From a virus, in IMG/VR virus record IMGVR_UViG_3300045902_000159, positions 1-43,489 of that record: a stretch of DNA of 43,489 nucleotides; one strand, given 5' to 3'. Below the pieces are notes generated by a model, which saw only the letters and a list, made by a program, of their open reading frames with translations, did no database searches and was not told the DNA's origin. Shown piece by piece: positions 934-43,489 of the stretch (positions are counted from its first letter, which is position 1; each line of letters begins with the position of its first letter). The translations under genes were made by a program, and so were the position numbers.

Positions 934-1104
934 TTATTTCAATTCCACTATGGTACGATTACGAATACCCTGTTTGATTGATTGACCTGTAAATGCGCAT
1001 ACGGTATCGACATTATGGACAGGATCGGTAACCCAAACAGGGTCAAGGTGTTTGGCTATAAAGTTTATTGCGTGCATAATGAAATGAGGTGGCAATTCGC
1101 CCAT
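934..1104 (-). CDS. small hypothetical protein ending in the CRISPR-repeat-like sequence (56 aa)
   Basis: Starting at the ATG at 1104, the protein begins MGELPPHFIMHAINFIAKHL and holds a CAFTGQSIKQG segment. Its last residues (RNRTIVELK) are encoded by the lone repeat at 936-965. The array repeats at the right end, read in the same frame, give NDTMVELR. A TTG at 1134 would overlap the methyltransferase stop. The C-x-F-T-G motif could be half of a zinc-binding site, but only one Cys is visible. It could be a remnant of a larger gene that once adjoined a CRISPR array; that is speculation. Confidence 0.4.
   Translation of the reverse strand: MGELPPHFIMHAINFIAKHLDPVWVTDPVHNVDTVCAFTGQSIKQGIRNRTIVELK
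936..965 (-). repeat. lone CRISPR-repeat-like sequence
   Basis: This 30-nt sequence matches the array repeat at 42960-43451 at 22 of 30 positions without gaps; five of the eight differences are transitions. Read on the minus strand it ends in ATTGAAAT, the classic 8-nt 3' end (crRNA 5' handle) of Cas6-processed type I-B and III repeats. No second repeat copy occurs one repeat-spacer unit (about 66 bases) away on either side. Confidence 0.65.
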
Positions 1105-1121
1105 TAATAACTTAGTTTTAG

Positions 1122-2027
1122 TTATGAAATACAATCTATAAGATTCTTAGCAATATCCTGAATAACGGGGACGGTTACGGAATTTCCAAAAAGCCCCGAA
1201 ACTATGTTATAACTTCCCTTTAGTTTGAAAGAATCAGGAAAGCCTTGCAATCTTTTTAATTCGTTGAAAGTCGGATAGCGGAAAATTCCGTTTACATAAA
1301 AAACATTCATTGGATGACTTTTCATAAGACAAAAAGCAATATCCGACTCTTTAACAATTCTATATCCAAATCCTCCCCTATATTTTTTTTCTCTAATGAA
1401 TTGATGTGGGTTGTTATTATAAAATGTATAAAATTCTTTACTAATTCTATCCGGCACTGTCTCTAAATCATCTGCTAATATATCTGCTATCGTAAAACTA
1501 CTCTGCCGTTCGGGAAATTCAAAATCTACCTTTTCCCTAAACCCTACCAAATATATACGACTCCGATTTTGAGGAACGTAGTTTTTAGAATTAATTATTT
1601 TCCAATGAACATAATAACCAGCATCTTGCAGTAACGAAAGTATTTGTTCAAATGTTTGTCCCTTGTTAATTGATTTGAGGTTAGCAACATTTTCCAAAAT
1701 AAATGCTTTCGGCTTTTTCACTTGCAGGATATTTAATATATTAAATATTAACGTTCCGCGCGCATCTTCAAATCCTAATTGTTTACCATTTGCCGAAAAC
1801 GGTTGGCATGGGAATCCTCCGCAAAGAATATCAAAATCGGGAATATATTTAGGGTTAAATCGTGTAATATCTCTGTTTATAAATGTAGTCGGGAAGTTTA
1901 ATTTATAAACCCTGCGTGCTGATTCGGATATTTCGGATGCAAAAACGCATTTGCAACCGAGATTTGATAAAGCTAAATGGAAACCTCCGATCCCCGCAAA
2001 TAAGTCAATAAATGTTAATTTACGCAT
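1122..2027 (-). CDS. DNA (cytosine-5-)-methyltransferase
   Basis: Transfers a methyl group from SAM to C5 of cytosine in DNA. The 301 residues carry the family motifs in order: I (FIDLFAGIGGF, 6-16), IV with catalytic Cys74 (GGFPCQPFS, 70-78), VI (ENV, 112-114), VIII (QNRSRIYLVGF, 153-163), then RLQGFPDSF (259-267) and GNSVTVPV (281-288) for IX-X. Length is normal for a solitary phage Dcm-type enzyme, and no partner restriction endonuclease is visible. It directly follows a second methyltransferase gene (3-base gap), so the pair probably protects phage DNA from restriction. The A/T-rich composition, unlike the neighbouring gene, suggests separate acquisition. Target site unknown. Confidence 0.93.
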   Translation of the reverse strand: MRKLTFIDLFAGIGGFHLALSNLGCKCVFASEISESARRVYKLNFPTTFINRDITRFNPKYIPDFDILCGGFPCQPFSANGKQLGFEDARGTLIFNILNILQVKKPKAFILENVANLKSINKGQTFEQILSLLQDAGYYVHWKIINSKNYVPQNRSRIYLVGFREKVDFEFPERQSSFTIADILADDLETVPDRISKEFYTFYNNNPHQFIREKKYRGGFGYRIVKESDIAFCLMKSHPMNVFYVNGIFRYPTFNELKRLQGFPDSFKLKGSYNIVSGLFGNSVTVPVIQDIAKNLIDCIS

Positions 2028-4372: not shown

Positions 4373-4943
4373 TTAAGTAATCTATTACGGTTTGTTGAAA
4401 TGTTTTATAGTCCCAAATTACTTCTACTTTGTAGCCCGCTTTCCGCAGTGTTTCATGTGTTGACTTTTGTTCATCCGATAATCTATTCTTAGTTTTCGGT
4501 GTCTTCAGTTCAATAAACAAGCCCGCATACAGCACCGGCTCCTCCCGTGTTTCCACGCCAAACAATTCGGGATGAATACGTACTTTCTTTTTCACATGAA
4601 AGATTGAAAGATCAGGAAAGCCTTTGTGATAACCGGCACGTTTCGCATTTGCGCCCCGAAAACCACTAACCTGATTAGATGTATGATTCAGCACAACATC
4701 CAATCCGTGCGCCTCTATGTATTCATCAAACCAATCGACACATGATTCATGTAGCACGCTTTCACTATCAGGGGCTGATGCAATGCGCGCCAATCTGTGA
4801 TAGTCTTTCGGTGATTCGTATGTTTCTTGTTTCTGCACAGTGGTCAAAGGTTCGTTGAATAGTTCATGAAAAGGCTTGGTGGAAGGTACTAAACGTTCTA
4901 CACCTGCCTTATTCCACACCTTCCGCCCGTACTTCCGTTTCAT
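4362..4943 (-). CDS. VRR-NUC domain nuclease
   Basis: A 193-residue protein with the PD-(D/E)XK-type VRR-NUC fold (PF08774). Visible signature: Glu66 helix (HESCVDWFDEY), the GANAKRAGYHKGFPDL segment with catalytic Asp111, and FIELK with Glu145 and Lys147, followed by LSDEQKSTHETLRKAGYKVE. Phage members are thought to act as Holliday-junction or structure-specific nucleases in recombination and genome processing. The ~60-residue N-terminal extension is not assigned. Its start overlaps the upstream HTH gene by 35 bases. Confidence 0.9.
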   Translation of the reverse strand: MKRKYGRKVWNKAGVERLVPSTKPFHELFNEPLTTVQKQETYESPKDYHRLARIASAPDSESVLHESCVDWFDEYIEAHGLDVVLNHTSNQVSGFRGANAKRAGYHKGFPDLSIFHVKKKVRIHPELFGVETREEPVLYAGLFIELKTPKTKNRLSDEQKSTHETLRKAGYKVEVIWDYKTFQQTVIDYLNDN

Positions 4944-5538
4944 TTTTCTTGATTCCGTGTCGGTAAATAAATGAGTTAATCTGTGCCTCTGTTCTCCCTA
5001 ACTTGGCGGCGATCTGTGTAGCCGGGATCCTGCCGTACCACTCTTTGATAAATGCAATATCTTCATCCGTATATGGGTTATTGGTTTCATAAGCCTTTTT
5101 TAAGCCAAATTTACGGGCTTTGGTTCTGATGGCTGTTATCGAAATATCATACTTGATAGCAAGTTCCTTTGTTGTGTAATTCGGATAATCCTTTTTGAAT
5201 TGCTCCAATTCGCGTATATTCAAAAACTTGCGCGGACGTGCAAGCGTTAATCCTTTACGCAAATCCATTCTATCAATCATATATTCAACATGCCACCATT
5301 TTTTACTATCATTCAACAATGATGCGATTTGCCGAAAAGGCAGATGGGCATTAGCTTTTAATATAGCCAACTCTTCATCTGACCATGATTGCCGAACTAA
5401 CCCTAACTTAGTAGCATACATAGAAACACAACTTTTTGTTATGTTTAACTCATAGGCTATTTCGGTTAGCTTCTTGCCTTCAGCGTACAGCTCTTTTAGC
5501 CGTTCAATTTTTTCCTGACCTATTGGTTTTCTACCCAT
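4909..5538 (-). CDS. multi helix-turn-helix (Myb/SANT-like) DNA-binding protein
   Basis: This protein of 209 residues contains three or four repeated HTH-like units: KIERLKELYAEGKKLTEIAY (N-terminal), then WSDEELAILKANAHLPFRQI, the IRELEQFKKDYPNYTTKELA unit, and YTDEDIAFIKEWYGRIPATQ. Each ends in a recognition-helix-like segment (e.g. LNITKSCVSMYATKLGL, KYDISITAIRTKARKFGL, LGRTEAQINSFIYRHGI). Repeated units of this type occur in phage DNA-binding and homing-endonuclease-associated proteins; no nuclease motif is visible, so a regulatory or architectural role is my inference. Confidence 0.8.
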   Translation of the reverse strand: MGRKPIGQEKIERLKELYAEGKKLTEIAYELNITKSCVSMYATKLGLVRQSWSDEELAILKANAHLPFRQIASLLNDSKKWWHVEYMIDRMDLRKGLTLARPRKFLNIRELEQFKKDYPNYTTKELAIKYDISITAIRTKARKFGLKKAYETNNPYTDEDIAFIKEWYGRIPATQIAAKLGRTEAQINSFIYRHGIKKNETEVRAEGVE

Positions 5539-7696: not shown

Positions 7697-8008
7697 TTAG
7701 GTTAATCCCTCCTCACTATCCCACTCTTTTCTAAGCCTATCTATACCATCAGCAACTTTTTGAGATAAGAGAATTCTAACATCTCTATCCTCAATTACGA
7801 ATTGCGTTACCAGTCTGCAATAAATGCGAAACAGGTCAGACTGAGCGGAAAATATTGCATGAGCGCACGCATCTTGCCGATCCTTAAAATGCGCCTCAAT
7901 ACAGGCATCAAAAAAATTCTTCACCTTGTCTAAGGTATATATAGAATAAGCGATCATGTCTCGATCGCTTATCGGATCAGCTTTTAGTTGTTCTTCTGTC
8001 TTTTCCAT
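7697..8008 (-). CDS. hypothetical helical protein (103 aa)
   Basis: Mostly alpha-helical and charged (MIAYSIYTLDKVKNFFDACI, then IFSAQSDLFRIYCRLVTQFV), ending DRLRKEWDSEEGLT. No recognised domain. It lies in the leftward small-gene block and overlaps the end of the predicted 38-residue membrane peptide gene. Confidence 0.6.
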   Translation of the reverse strand: MEKTEEQLKADPISDRDMIAYSIYTLDKVKNFFDACIEAHFKDRQDACAHAIFSAQSDLFRIYCRLVTQFVIEDRDVRILLSQKVADGIDRLRKEWDSEEGLT

Positions 8009-8430: not shown

Positions 8431-8685
8431 TTAATCTTCTAAAAGTTGATGTCTTAGGTTGCGCATGAGTTGCTTTCGTGCGCGCTTGAATGAACGACGC
8501 ATTGCGTAGTATTCATAACGAAAATGTGTCAAAAACTTACCGCCTTGCCTCCATGTAATTCCACATGACTCATGTGCCTTGCGGTTCGTAGCACGCTTTG
8601 ATTTATGCCGTCTCCAATGATCTATCTCGTTTTTGTCTCGATAAATGTACTTAGTTTCAGCTAAGTCAATGTCTTTTTTATACAT
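8431..8685 (-). CDS. small very basic protein (84 aa)
   Basis: Rich in Arg, Lys, His and Tyr (IDHWRRHKSKRATNRKAHES, then YYAMRRSFKRARKQLMRNLR), with a predicted nucleic-acid-binding charge. It overlaps the DUF2829-like gene upstream by 8 bases. No zinc-binding cluster or known fold is visible. Confidence 0.6.
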   Translation of the reverse strand: MYKKDIDLAETKYIYRDKNEIDHWRRHKSKRATNRKAHESCGITWRQGGKFLTHFRYEYYAMRRSFKRARKQLMRNLRHQLLED

Positions 8686-11718: not shown

Positions 11719-12082
11719 GATAGGGCTGTAAATTTAGCGGTTTTTTGAAATATTCAGGATTGTAATTCGCATGGAATCGCACATAGGTGCGGTATTTCTG
11801 TGCTACGTCCCAGACGGCGGGATAATATTGCCATGTGTTTTGCGTCAGGGAATAGACGAAATTGTCCCGCACCCGGATTTCACGGTCCAAACTATCTTTG
11901 ATATGATAGTATTGCCGATTAAGCGCGATAAGTTGCGCTTCAGTTTCGGCTAATTCTGCCTGCCAATCCCGTTTCAGTTGCAGGTTTTCATTTGCAATGC
12001 TTAAAGCATTGCCGATACCGAAAGAAAAAACGAATATTGATATGGCAAGCCATGCCTTATCTTTTAGGTCTAAATGGTTCAT
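11702..12082 (-). CDS. membrane-anchored coiled-coil protein (126 aa)
   Basis: One N-terminal transmembrane helix (about 10-29, AWLAISIFVFSFGIGNALSI) is followed by a coiled-coil (LQLKRDWQAELAETEAQLIA) and a Tyr-rich C-terminal part (NTWQYYPAVWDVAQKYRTYV). The form fits a single-pass periplasmic protein. It lies within the replication operon, overlapping the DnaA-like gene by 26 bases. Role unknown. Confidence 0.65.
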   Translation of the reverse strand: MNHLDLKDKAWLAISIFVFSFGIGNALSIANENLQLKRDWQAELAETEAQLIALNRQYYHIKDSLDREIRVRDNFVYSLTQNTWQYYPAVWDVAQKYRTYVRFHANYNPEYFKKPLNLQPYQAPTK

Positions 12083-12503
12083 AATCAGGGATTTGGTTAA
12101 AGTCTTTTGCGATAGGTAGCTGTATCAATGTCGTATCGCTAATCTTTTTAGGATTAACCATATTTACCAATGTCGAATAAGCAAATATAGCATTTGGGTC
12201 TTTTGAATCAAGCCACCCACTTAATGTTTGTATTGAATGTGAAATCGTTGTTCTATCCCTATCAAACAATAAGGCTATTTCTTCTGGCTTGAGTTTATAA
12301 ACATGATAGAGATAGTATATTACCACATATTTAACAAGCATGTATCGATACCCTCTGTGCTTACTAAAAAGTAATTCAGGTTTATAGTCATGTATGATCT
12401 TTTTTGCAAGATCGTGGCATAATCGGTTTGCTTTGATTTTCAGAAAGGCGATTTTCTGATCTCCAAAACGCTTTGCAGTTGACTGATTTCGTAAAGTTTC
12501 CAT
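12057..12503 (-). CDS. DnaA domain IV-like DNA-binding protein
   Basis: Residues about 53-94 (MLVKYVVIYYLYHVYKLKPE, then EIALLFDRDRTTISHSIQTL) match the DnaA C-terminal helix-turn-helix that reads DnaA boxes: the RDRTTISH motif corresponds to the RDHTTVIHA signature of DnaA. The ATPase domain is absent, and the protein is only 148 residues. Such truncated proteins in phages may bind the origin or mimic host DnaA. Start at 12503 is within the upstream nuclease gene (64-base overlap). Confidence 0.8.
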   Translation of the reverse strand: METLRNQSTAKRFGDQKIAFLKIKANRLCHDLAKKIIHDYKPELLFSKHRGYRYMLVKYVVIYYLYHVYKLKPEEIALLFDRDRTTISHSIQTLSGWLDSKDPNAIFAYSTLVNMVNPKKISDTTLIQLPIAKDFNQIPDYEPFRPKR

Positions 12504-41052: not shown

Positions 41053-41214
41053 GTGATATTGCCAAATGAATACAACCGTTACGCTATCACTGACCAAATA
41101 AAACAACTATATTACGACCTGACAGGCAAATGGCACATCGCAGGGTGCGCTAAGATCACTTGTCAGACTGATAATAAGTTCAAATGGCTGAAGAAACAAT
41201 ATGAAAAGCAGTAA
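41053..41214 (+). CDS. small protein from a GTG start (53 aa)
   Basis: An open frame from GTG 41053 (a TTG at 41059 is also possible) encodes ILPNEYNRYAITDQIKQLYY and ends KWLKKQYEKQ. It fills the gap between the methyltransferase-fold gene and the terminase small subunit and overlaps that gene's ATG by 14 bases. The frame is in register with the previous gene past its TGA, so a read-through extension is an alternative. Confidence 0.45.
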   Translation: MILPNEYNRYAITDQIKQLYYDLTGKWHIAGCAKITCQTDNKFKWLKKQYEKQ

Positions 41215-41830
41215 AGAGGATGGAATTAGTAGACTTCGCGCGCTGGATGTAAACGAAATCGGACAGCGCGCGAGGGTACATTCCAAAAAACATAAGGATA
41301 AGATCATATCTTTTCTTTTGCGCTTAGAAGCAGGGGAAGACTATGATGCACTGAAGCTCGAATTAGATGTCAACGAGGCAAGGCTGTGTAATTACATCCT
41401 TCGCTACCCCTATATCCGTGCGTTATATCAAAGTATCATCCTTGATCCCAATGCCAATATCATCGCATTGCTGGAATTTAGGATGTTACGTGAGATTATG
41501 CGCATGAAAGAGACGACCGAAACAAGATGCTATAAAGTAGATGAAAAGGGCAATAAAATTTTGGTTAGGGTTGATAAAACGATCAAAGATTCTAAGCTGA
41601 AATTGGGGGACATATTACAAGTGTTGCAAACGTTAGCCCCCGAAAAATGGAAAGGTCAAACATTAGAATCATTAGCGGACAGTTTATATGATGGCATCCC
41701 GTCAAATACAGTCGTACCACCCCCACTCTGGGCAAATACGACTTCATATGTGGATGAAACAATACCCACAGGTGAAGTATTGGGTAATGAAAACTCCCCG
41801 GCAGTGGGGCAAGAGCCTATTTCTGATTAA
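41201..41830 (+). CDS. terminase small subunit-like protein
   Basis: Begins with charged residues and HTH-like helices (IGQRARVHSKKHKDKIISFL, then LNVNEARLC-like DVNEARLCNYILRYPYIRAL) and continues with long helices (NIIALLEFRMLREIMRMKET). Position and size (209 aa) match a terminase small subunit, which selects the DNA for packaging. The last ~47 residues (from about PSNTVV) run in a different frame over the start of the large subunit for 143 bases and look less protein-like, so the true end may be earlier or the overlap is real dual coding. Confidence 0.65.
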   Translation: MKSSKEDGISRLRALDVNEIGQRARVHSKKHKDKIISFLLRLEAGEDYDALKLELDVNEARLCNYILRYPYIRALYQSIILDPNANIIALLEFRMLREIMRMKETTETRCYKVDEKGNKILVRVDKTIKDSKLKLGDILQVLQTLAPEKWKGQTLESLADSLYDGIPSNTVVPPPLWANTTSYVDETIPTGEVLGNENSPAVGQEPISD

Positions 41831-42941
41831 CCATGCTTTAATATACCTATCCAATAACCCAAATAAATTGGTATGGTACGTCATGCCGTCATGGTCGCAA
41901 TGCAAATCCATATGGAATAAGTACATCGTACCGATTATGACCAAGCGAGGGGTAAGGCTTATTAAGAAAGCGAATAGCTCCGACTTGCGGGTTGAATTAA
42001 TCAATGGTAGTGTATTGGAATTTAAGACGGCAGAGAACTTTGAAAAGTTACGGGGTGCTACTTTGCACGGATTGATATGCGATGAGTTCGCTTTCTTTCG
42101 GGAAGGTGCTTATGAATTGGCATTAGAACCTATGTTGTTACAACATGGCGAATGGGTGATATTCAATTCAACACCCAAAGGTAAGAATAAGTTTTACGAG
42201 TTCTATCAACGGGGTGTTTTCGGTAGTCCAACCTACGATCCCCGCTGGGGTTCATTTGAATCAACGGTTGAGGAAACGGGCATTGCGAATTACATTGAGG
42301 AGGTCTATGCCAAGCGATCACAACTCCCTGAAGCCTATTACCGGCAAGAGTATTTAGGTGAGTTCATAGATAACGGTGGTTCGGTGTTCACGAATCTAAC
42401 GAATGCCTTTACCCTACATGACTTTGCACCGCTTGGCAAGAAACACTATGCCGGCGTGGACATCGGCAAAGGCAACGATAGGACAGTTATCACAGTGTTG
42501 AATGAAAAAGGGCAGTGCGTATTTTGGAAACGCTTTGAAATTGAGGAGCAAAAGGACGGCGTAGAAATGGCGCAACTTATAGCCAACTATTTGAATGATA
42601 TTCCCAACCTGCGGTGCTTATGGGAGACTAATTTCGATCCGTCGGTTTTTGATATGGTCAGGCGTAAAGCAAAAAAAGCGAACTTGATTAAGTTCACTAC
42701 GAGCAATGATTCCAAAAACAATATTATATCGAAACTAAATGCGTCCTTATCTTTGGGGACTGTGGCATTGCCGACTTTTGCGAAAGAGATTGAGGAGGAA
42801 TTAATATCGTATGAGATGAACCTATCCACTGTCCGCCGTCTGCCCACCTACAATGCCCCGTCCGGGATGCACGATGACTGTGTAATGTCGTTGGCATTGG
42901 CTAATCATATTTACATGAACTACGAAAAGCCGATAAAATAA
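41688..42941 (+). CDS. terminase large subunit
   Basis: Packaging ATPase and nuclease of 417 residues. Walker A PRQWGKS (37-43), Walker B LICDEFAFF with Asp132-Glu133, coupling motif NSTPKG (160-165), and the RNase H-like nuclease core with Asp258 (VDIGKGND), Glu313 (LWETNFD) and the C-terminal HDDC region. The N-terminal YHPHSGQIRLH segment fits terminase N-termini, so the start near 41688 is accepted despite its overlap with the small subunit. The CRISPR array begins 18 bases after its stop. Confidence 0.92.
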   Translation: MMASRQIQSYHPHSGQIRLHMWMKQYPQVKYWVMKTPRQWGKSLFLINHALIYLSNNPNKLVWYVMPSWSQCKSIWNKYIVPIMTKRGVRLIKKANSSDLRVELINGSVLEFKTAENFEKLRGATLHGLICDEFAFFREGAYELALEPMLLQHGEWVIFNSTPKGKNKFYEFYQRGVFGSPTYDPRWGSFESTVEETGIANYIEEVYAKRSQLPEAYYRQEYLGEFIDNGGSVFTNLTNAFTLHDFAPLGKKHYAGVDIGKGNDRTVITVLNEKGQCVFWKRFEIEEQKDGVEMAQLIANYLNDIPNLRCLWETNFDPSVFDMVRRKAKKANLIKFTTSNDSKNNIISKLNASLSLGTVALPTFAKEIEEELISYEMNLSTVRRLPTYNAPSGMHDDCVMSLALANHIYMNYEKPIK

Positions 42942-42959
42942 ATGTGCCAACGATCTTGC

Positions 42960-43489
42960 ATCTCAACTCCACCATAGTATCATTAAGACTCCGCTCCGCC
43001 TTAGTCGGTTGCGGGGTTGTGTCTAATCTCAACTCCACCATAGTATCATTAAGACTTTTTTTCTAATTGTGATATTTGCTGTTCATCCTCTATCTCAACT
43101 CCACCATAGTATCATTAAGACATCGTTAATACATTCGCGTTTCTTTCTTTAAGGTAATCTCAACTCCACCATAGTATCATTAAGACCTTAGTATTGCCTT
43201 TGAATTGTTACCCGAATTAAGAGATCTCAACTCCACCATAGTATCATTAAGACAACTGTTTAGCACAATTATTGATGTGAGAAAATTATATCTCAACTCC
43301 ACCATAGTATCATTAAGACAATAGCGAACCTTGTAAAAGTCTCCGCCGTGTTTACATCTCAACTCCACCATAGTATCATTAAGACTTTTCGGGTTGGTGG
43401 ATTCGGGTTTGATGCTCGACGATCTCAACTCCACCATAGTATCATTAAGACTCTGTAATGCCGTCGAAATCTTGCTTTCGATGTATTAT
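42960..43489 (-). CRISPR. CRISPR array: 8 identical 30-nt repeats, 8 spacers
   Basis: Repeats start at 42960, 43026, 43092, 43157, 43224, 43290, 43356 and 43422. Each reads ATCTCAACTCCACC followed by ATAGTATCATTAAGAC, without variation. Spacers are 36, 36, 35, 37, 36, 36 and 36 nt, plus a terminal 38 nt at the window edge with no closing repeat. The minus-strand repeat end (GTTGAGAT) resembles the ATTGAAAY handle of Cas6-processed types I-B or III, so transcription is probably leftward with the leader beyond the right edge. No cas gene is in the window; the array would rely on host Cas proteins. I saw no spacer copy elsewhere in the window by eye. Confidence 0.95.

Follow-up and report, generated by a model that had tools for sequence, protein, structure and literature searches.

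Where a CRISPR array directly follows the terminase gene of a phage, two questions arise: whether it belongs to the phage at all, and what it could do there. To answer them, we analysed the whole of the IMG/VR record IMGVR_UViG_3300045902_000159 (43,489 bases), which is referred to as the window hereafter. The first-pass annotation had described eight invariant repeats and eight different spacers 18 nt behind the terminase stop codon. The count bears out the repeats: eight perfect 30-nt copies of ATCTCAACTCCACCATAGTATCATTAAGAC (plus-strand reading) occupy positions 42960–43451, starting at 42960, 43026, 43092, 43157, 43224, 43290, 43356 and 43422, with start-to-start distances of 65–67 nt. The seven complete spacers between them are 36, 36, 35, 37, 36, 36 and 36 nt long, and they are all different and unrelated. 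The stretch is thus a CRISPR array in the general sense, that is, at least three near-identical direct repeats separated by unrelated spacers of regular length. Outside it, the closest match to the array repeat in the window has 22/30 identical positions (a solitary repeat at 936–965, described below), and the next-best non-array site has 19/30. Since no copy outside the array exceeds 22/30, the array is not a product of chance.

The contig ends 38 nt after the eighth repeat. Most simply, these bases comprise a 36-nt eighth spacer (43452–43487, if it is of typical length) and the letters AT (43488–43489) that open a ninth repeat, because the other seven spacers are 35–37 nt long and AT are the first bases of the repeat. 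The contig would then stop inside the array, which probably has at least nine repeats. Of the eight spacers of the first-pass annotation, seven are bounded by full repeats on both sides.

The array shares its contig with terL, the gene of the terminase large subunit (41688–42941, plus strand; a 417-aa ORF whose real start may lie further in; phrog_2, E 5e-37), and it adjoins phage DNA on just one side, running off the very end of the contig on the other. An assembly chimera or a prophage edge, in which a bacterial chromosomal array was joined to, or lies beside, phage DNA at 42942–42959, would have this appearance, and arrays of the Bacteroidota I-B family, to which the repeat is assigned below, are normally chromosomal. 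We nevertheless regard this explanation as rather unlikely. The terL gene is complete and has its own stop codon (42939–42941), 18 nt from the first array repeat, and no integrase was among the families listed for the window proteins (the best 25 for small ORFs).

Repeat family, hairpin and reading direction

Exact copies of the array repeat were found neither in viral_contigs nor in genome_contigs (one genome per species, ~85,000 species), and no copy with up to three mismatches was found in 395 Bacteroidota genomes. A looser pattern, applied to 247 genomes of the order, returned canonical relatives only. The host sharing the array repeat that the first-pass annotation had envisaged thus did not emerge from any of these sets, and none combining the same repeat with I-B cas genes was found by the exact genome_contigs search or in the 395 genomes, which together form a limited host sample. 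That no chromosome with the array repeat was found among ~85,000 species genomes also argues against the chimera.

Relatives of the repeat were obtained with a degenerate pattern that admitted either the array bases or the solitary-repeat bases at the variable positions. It matched 25 stretches of bacterial DNA, and the titles of nearly all of these name Bacteroidota groups. The canonical bases (ATTTCAATTCCACTATGGTACGATTA or a near variant) are present in all 25, and those of the array in none; the core shared by the hosts is partly produced by the search pattern, whereas the choice of bases at the degenerate positions is not. The ORFs beside the host arrays include Cas1b and Cas4b (eight members each) and, as single ORFs, Cas5b (TIGR01895), Cas3 and a match above the cut-off to the I-B Cas1 model TIGR03641. 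The presence of Cas1b, Cas4b, Cas5b and Cas3 beside the related arrays indicates that the repeat family goes with subtype I-B, and the array, whose repeat is homologous to these, is assigned to the subtype I-B repeat family of Bacteroidota. The first-pass annotation had left the choice between types I-B and III; the host genes speak for I-B, and nothing indicated III.

The array repeat agrees with the host repeats at 19–23 of 30 positions, the closest at 23/30, so that at least 7 of the 30 differ from every one. It keeps the hairpin positions and 6 of the 8 handle bases. Because the differences include the other 2 handle bases, it is not certain that an ordinary I-B complex of a host could use it. 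The hairpin spans the whole array repeat, with 8 + 3 pairs at −8.4 kcal/mol, which was equalled by 4 of 200 shuffles, and this fold is better than that of the canonical repeats. When 17 repeats are compared, these pairs are formed in 86% of the cells, as against 35–48% in slid versions. Covariation was discarded as a proof of the hairpin: pair 3–28 has the only double change (from U-A to C-G), a number that 187 of 500 shuffles reach. The fold therefore rests on energy and position. A search of Rfam gave no match.

In the host locus L026, the array lies behind cas1, and its repeat stands in the sense ending ATTGAAAT. Judging from this sense beside Cas1b, the phage array would be read on the minus strand in the direction of terL, its repeat then being GTCTTAATGATACTATGGTGGAGTTGAGAT, and the leader would lie beyond 43489, on the side of the probable ninth repeat. 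The leader side is the usual place of cas genes, and a full I-B operon measures ~8–9 kb. No cas family was among the best 25 of 143 families listed for the 51 window proteins, but since the contig appears to be cut on the leader side, this absence does not show that the phage itself lacks cas genes. A full CRISPR-Cas system encoded by the phage, with the leader and the cas genes just past the contig end, would accord with the loss of precisely this side and with the host arrays of the family, which adjoin cas1 on their leader side (L026), and huge phages with their own CRISPR-Cas systems provide a precedent (PMC7162821). Such a system is, however, improbable here: it would add ~8–9 kb, and it has left no cas gene among the listed matches. 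Full CRISPR systems are described as rare in phages of ordinary size, in which minimal components are commoner (PMC11656645).

The carrier phage and the solitary repeat

Among the window proteins, matches were found to TerL, tape measure, portal, endolysin-like and holin-like proteins, an S78-type protease, two DNA methyltransferases, an exonuclease and a Sak4-like protein; with this set, the carrier is a genuine tailed phage. A 209-aa protein encoded just before terL (41201–41830, plus strand) is, from its position, a possible small terminase. Relatives of the replication protein (DUF6371) occur in 75 of the 395 Bacteroidota genomes, and these relatives and the repeat family point to the same host phylum, Bacteroidota, for the phage and the repeat. 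The nearest cultured relatives of the portal protein are Nonlabens phages. No close phage relatives were confirmed in viral_contigs (IMG/VR) by TerL, portal and replication protein, and the TerL relatives in Bacteroidota genomes, considered for synteny, were set aside because they are only 20–28% identical and thus too distant.

Several further features of the carrier are recorded here. On the minus strand, adjacent DNA methyltransferases of the C5 and N6/N4 types (1122–2870) may protect against restriction; the protein encoded at 8678–9226 matches the Tad2-like domain (Thoeris anti-defence 2) weakly and below the cut-off, with E 2e-4; and the protein encoded at 12057–12503 has a similarly sub-cut-off, weak match (E 1e-5) to the C-terminal helix-turn-helix of DnaA. 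A symmetric 11-bp hairpin with a T-run at 658–683, likely a two-way terminator, separates the plus-strand ORFs of the left end from the minus-strand cluster.

At the opposite end of the contig from the array, ~42 kb away, lies a solitary repeat unit (936–965, minus strand; TTCGTAATCGTACCATAGTGGAATTGAAAT in the crRNA sense), which is an addition to the observations of the first-pass annotation. On its strand, it has the stop of the C5 methyltransferase on one side and a small ORF on the other. Three features characterize it. One is its similarity: it is identical to the host-family core at 26/26 positions, while the best core matches in 100 Markov-shuffled windows reached 16–21/26, and it agrees with the array repeat at 22/30. 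Another is that it has the properties of a solitary repeat unit, that is, at least 90% identity to a known repeat (28/30 to the host repeat of L026) and no partial repeats nearby. The last concerns the intergenic position expected of such units: a 66-codon ORF (934–1134, minus strand), for which no homologue was found and which may not be a gene, runs through the repeat with its 3′ end. The passage of this ORF through the repeat was rejected as evidence for a gene, because the family repeats have one open frame (NRTIVELK), and any ORF crossing one reads that way. No Bacteroidota-type promoter was found upstream of the repeat. Most likely, the solitary repeat is a second, separate CRISPR-derived element, either a decoy RNA (a candidate RNA anti-CRISPR) or the remnant of an earlier array. 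The presence of a second CRISPR element of the same family ~42 kb off in the contig makes a chance chimera less likely. The window has no terminal repeats that would indicate circularity; if the genome were circular and had been opened in the array, the two elements could be conjectured to share one region, bordered by the terminase cluster of the plus strand and by the end of the cluster on the minus strand.

A broader pattern detected three further solitary repeats in two phage contigs: two different ones in IMGVR 3300028272_000002 (at 4987 and 25538) and one in IMGVR 3300028167_000102. In their crRNA sense, these repeats lie at ~4983–5012 (plus strand) in locus L051, ~4541–4570 (minus) in L049 and ~7774–7803 (minus) in L050. 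The two contigs, both only remotely related to the window, are 99% identical over 9.8 kb in their shared part, and this near-identity reduces them to approximately one independent lineage. Solitary repeats of the Bacteroidota I-B-type family thus recur in phages; an array and a solitary repeat together were seen in no other contig searched. Weak homologues of the 209-aa protein occur in L050 and L051. The ORF directly after the solitary repeat of L051 looks, on visual inspection, like the C-terminal domain of DnaA.

Spacers and possible function

No spacer matched the window itself beyond chance. This freedom from matches to the carrier is the condition for a weapon against others. The search of phage and plasmid collections that the first-pass annotation had proposed yielded no target, only chance-level matches (E 4–5). 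Codon-degenerate patterns derived from spacers 6 and 8 had no match in IMG/VR (viral_contigs), and comparison of the spacers with the fetched host loci and the phages bearing solitary repeats gave short words of 10–16 nt only. Conversely, 627 distinct host spacers matched the window with at best 71% identity, as compared with 69% for reversed controls. The first-pass annotation had also read several spacers as protein-like. This impression did not hold, since open frames number 13/24 on the plus strand and 12/24 on the minus strand, which is the chance level: ~13–14 are expected for random 36-mers, from (61/64) to the power 11–12.

The lack of spacer targets agrees with the array being a relic or a many-copy decoy, which would persist neutrally or soak up host Cas6 and Cas7 in the manner of chained RNA anti-CRISPRs, and so does the solitary repeat of the same window, a known form of RNA anti-CRISPRs (PMC10651486). 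Against it stand the eight identical repeats with their intact hairpin, and eight different spacers of normal length are needless for decay or for pure decoying; we hold this explanation to be quite improbable.

The explanation that we favour, with moderate confidence, is that the phage carries a I-B-type array with which it turns the Cas proteins of its host on competitors, like the Clostridioides difficile phage CDKM15. In outline, a Bacteroidota phage would carry an array of the I-B family where its terminase gene cluster ends, and the array, to judge from the repeat, would be transcribed from the minus strand. Host Cas6 may cut the transcript at the conserved hairpin, and crRNAs of ~66 nt with the 5′ end GUUGAGAU would come from this strand. 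Such guides could be loaded into the I-B Cascade of the host, and the infected or lysogenic cell would then attack phages or plasmids with matching sequences.

A dual role of the two elements, which we think very improbable, can also be imagined: the solitary repeat would jam the host I-B complexes, and the guides of the array, the repeat of which has diverged in its handle but not in its hairpin, would either escape the jam or be loaded by a different host system, hitting rivals. If this were true, the phage would disable the immunity of its host while its own guides stayed active against rivals.

Comparison with known arrays and solitary repeats

Phages that carry arrays but no cas genes have been described before; less common is the presence in one phage of both an array and a solitary repeat that differ in their repeat sequence. 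The closest model of the favoured explanation, CDKM15, has seven repeats, no cas genes, a I-B host and spacers that match other phages (PMC5127024). With CDKM15 and the prophage arrays of C. difficile strain 630, the present array shares its multi-spacer form in a tailed phage and a I-B host family (PMC5127024). It also shares with CDKM15 a repeat a few bases off those of related arrays, the lack of cas genes (here, in the window) and a similar spacer length, 34–37 nt there and 35–37 nt here (PMC5127024). In CDKM15, however, the spacers match other phages, the leader is known and the array precedes the tail module (PMC5127024), whereas here the phage is linked to Bacteroidota, a second, solitary repeat is present and no spacer target was found.

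The array of the Nostoc cyanophage N-1 likewise lacks cas genes (as does the window) and has spacers without database matches (PMC4916379). It comprises five repeats, as compared with eight here, and in both cases the repeat is not identical to that of a host, the N-1 repeat being host-like (PMC4916379). In contrast to the present array, that of N-1 is type I-D-like; it was confirmed by PCR and is transcribed during infection (PMC4916379). If the favoured explanation is right, immune memory without cas genes, known from phages of C. difficile and cyanobacteria, would extend to a Bacteroidota-linked phage.

The first-pass annotation had drawn a parallel to viral mini-arrays. Those of the Sulfolobales viruses SPV1 and SPV2 share the presumed reliance on host cas genes, but they have 1–2 spacers, host-like repeats and reciprocal targeting, as against approximately eight or more spacers, a diverged repeat and no target found in the present case (PMC6858448). 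The mini-array class proper has 1–2 spacers and repeats identical to those of the host (PMC11656645); the present array falls outside it, with eight spacers and a repeat identical to none searched. As for mini-array targeting, the spacers here match, beyond chance, neither the carrier nor any sequence in the phage and plasmid collections.

Finally, the solitary repeat at 936–965 resembles the RNA anti-CRISPRs, or solitary repeat units, in being a lone, near-canonical repeat in a phage (PMC10651486). It differs from them in that the last codons of a small ORF run through it, no promoter was found for it and its phage also has an array. If the combination of an array with a differing solitary repeat is real, it raises the question of whether phages can block and use host CRISPR immunity simultaneously.
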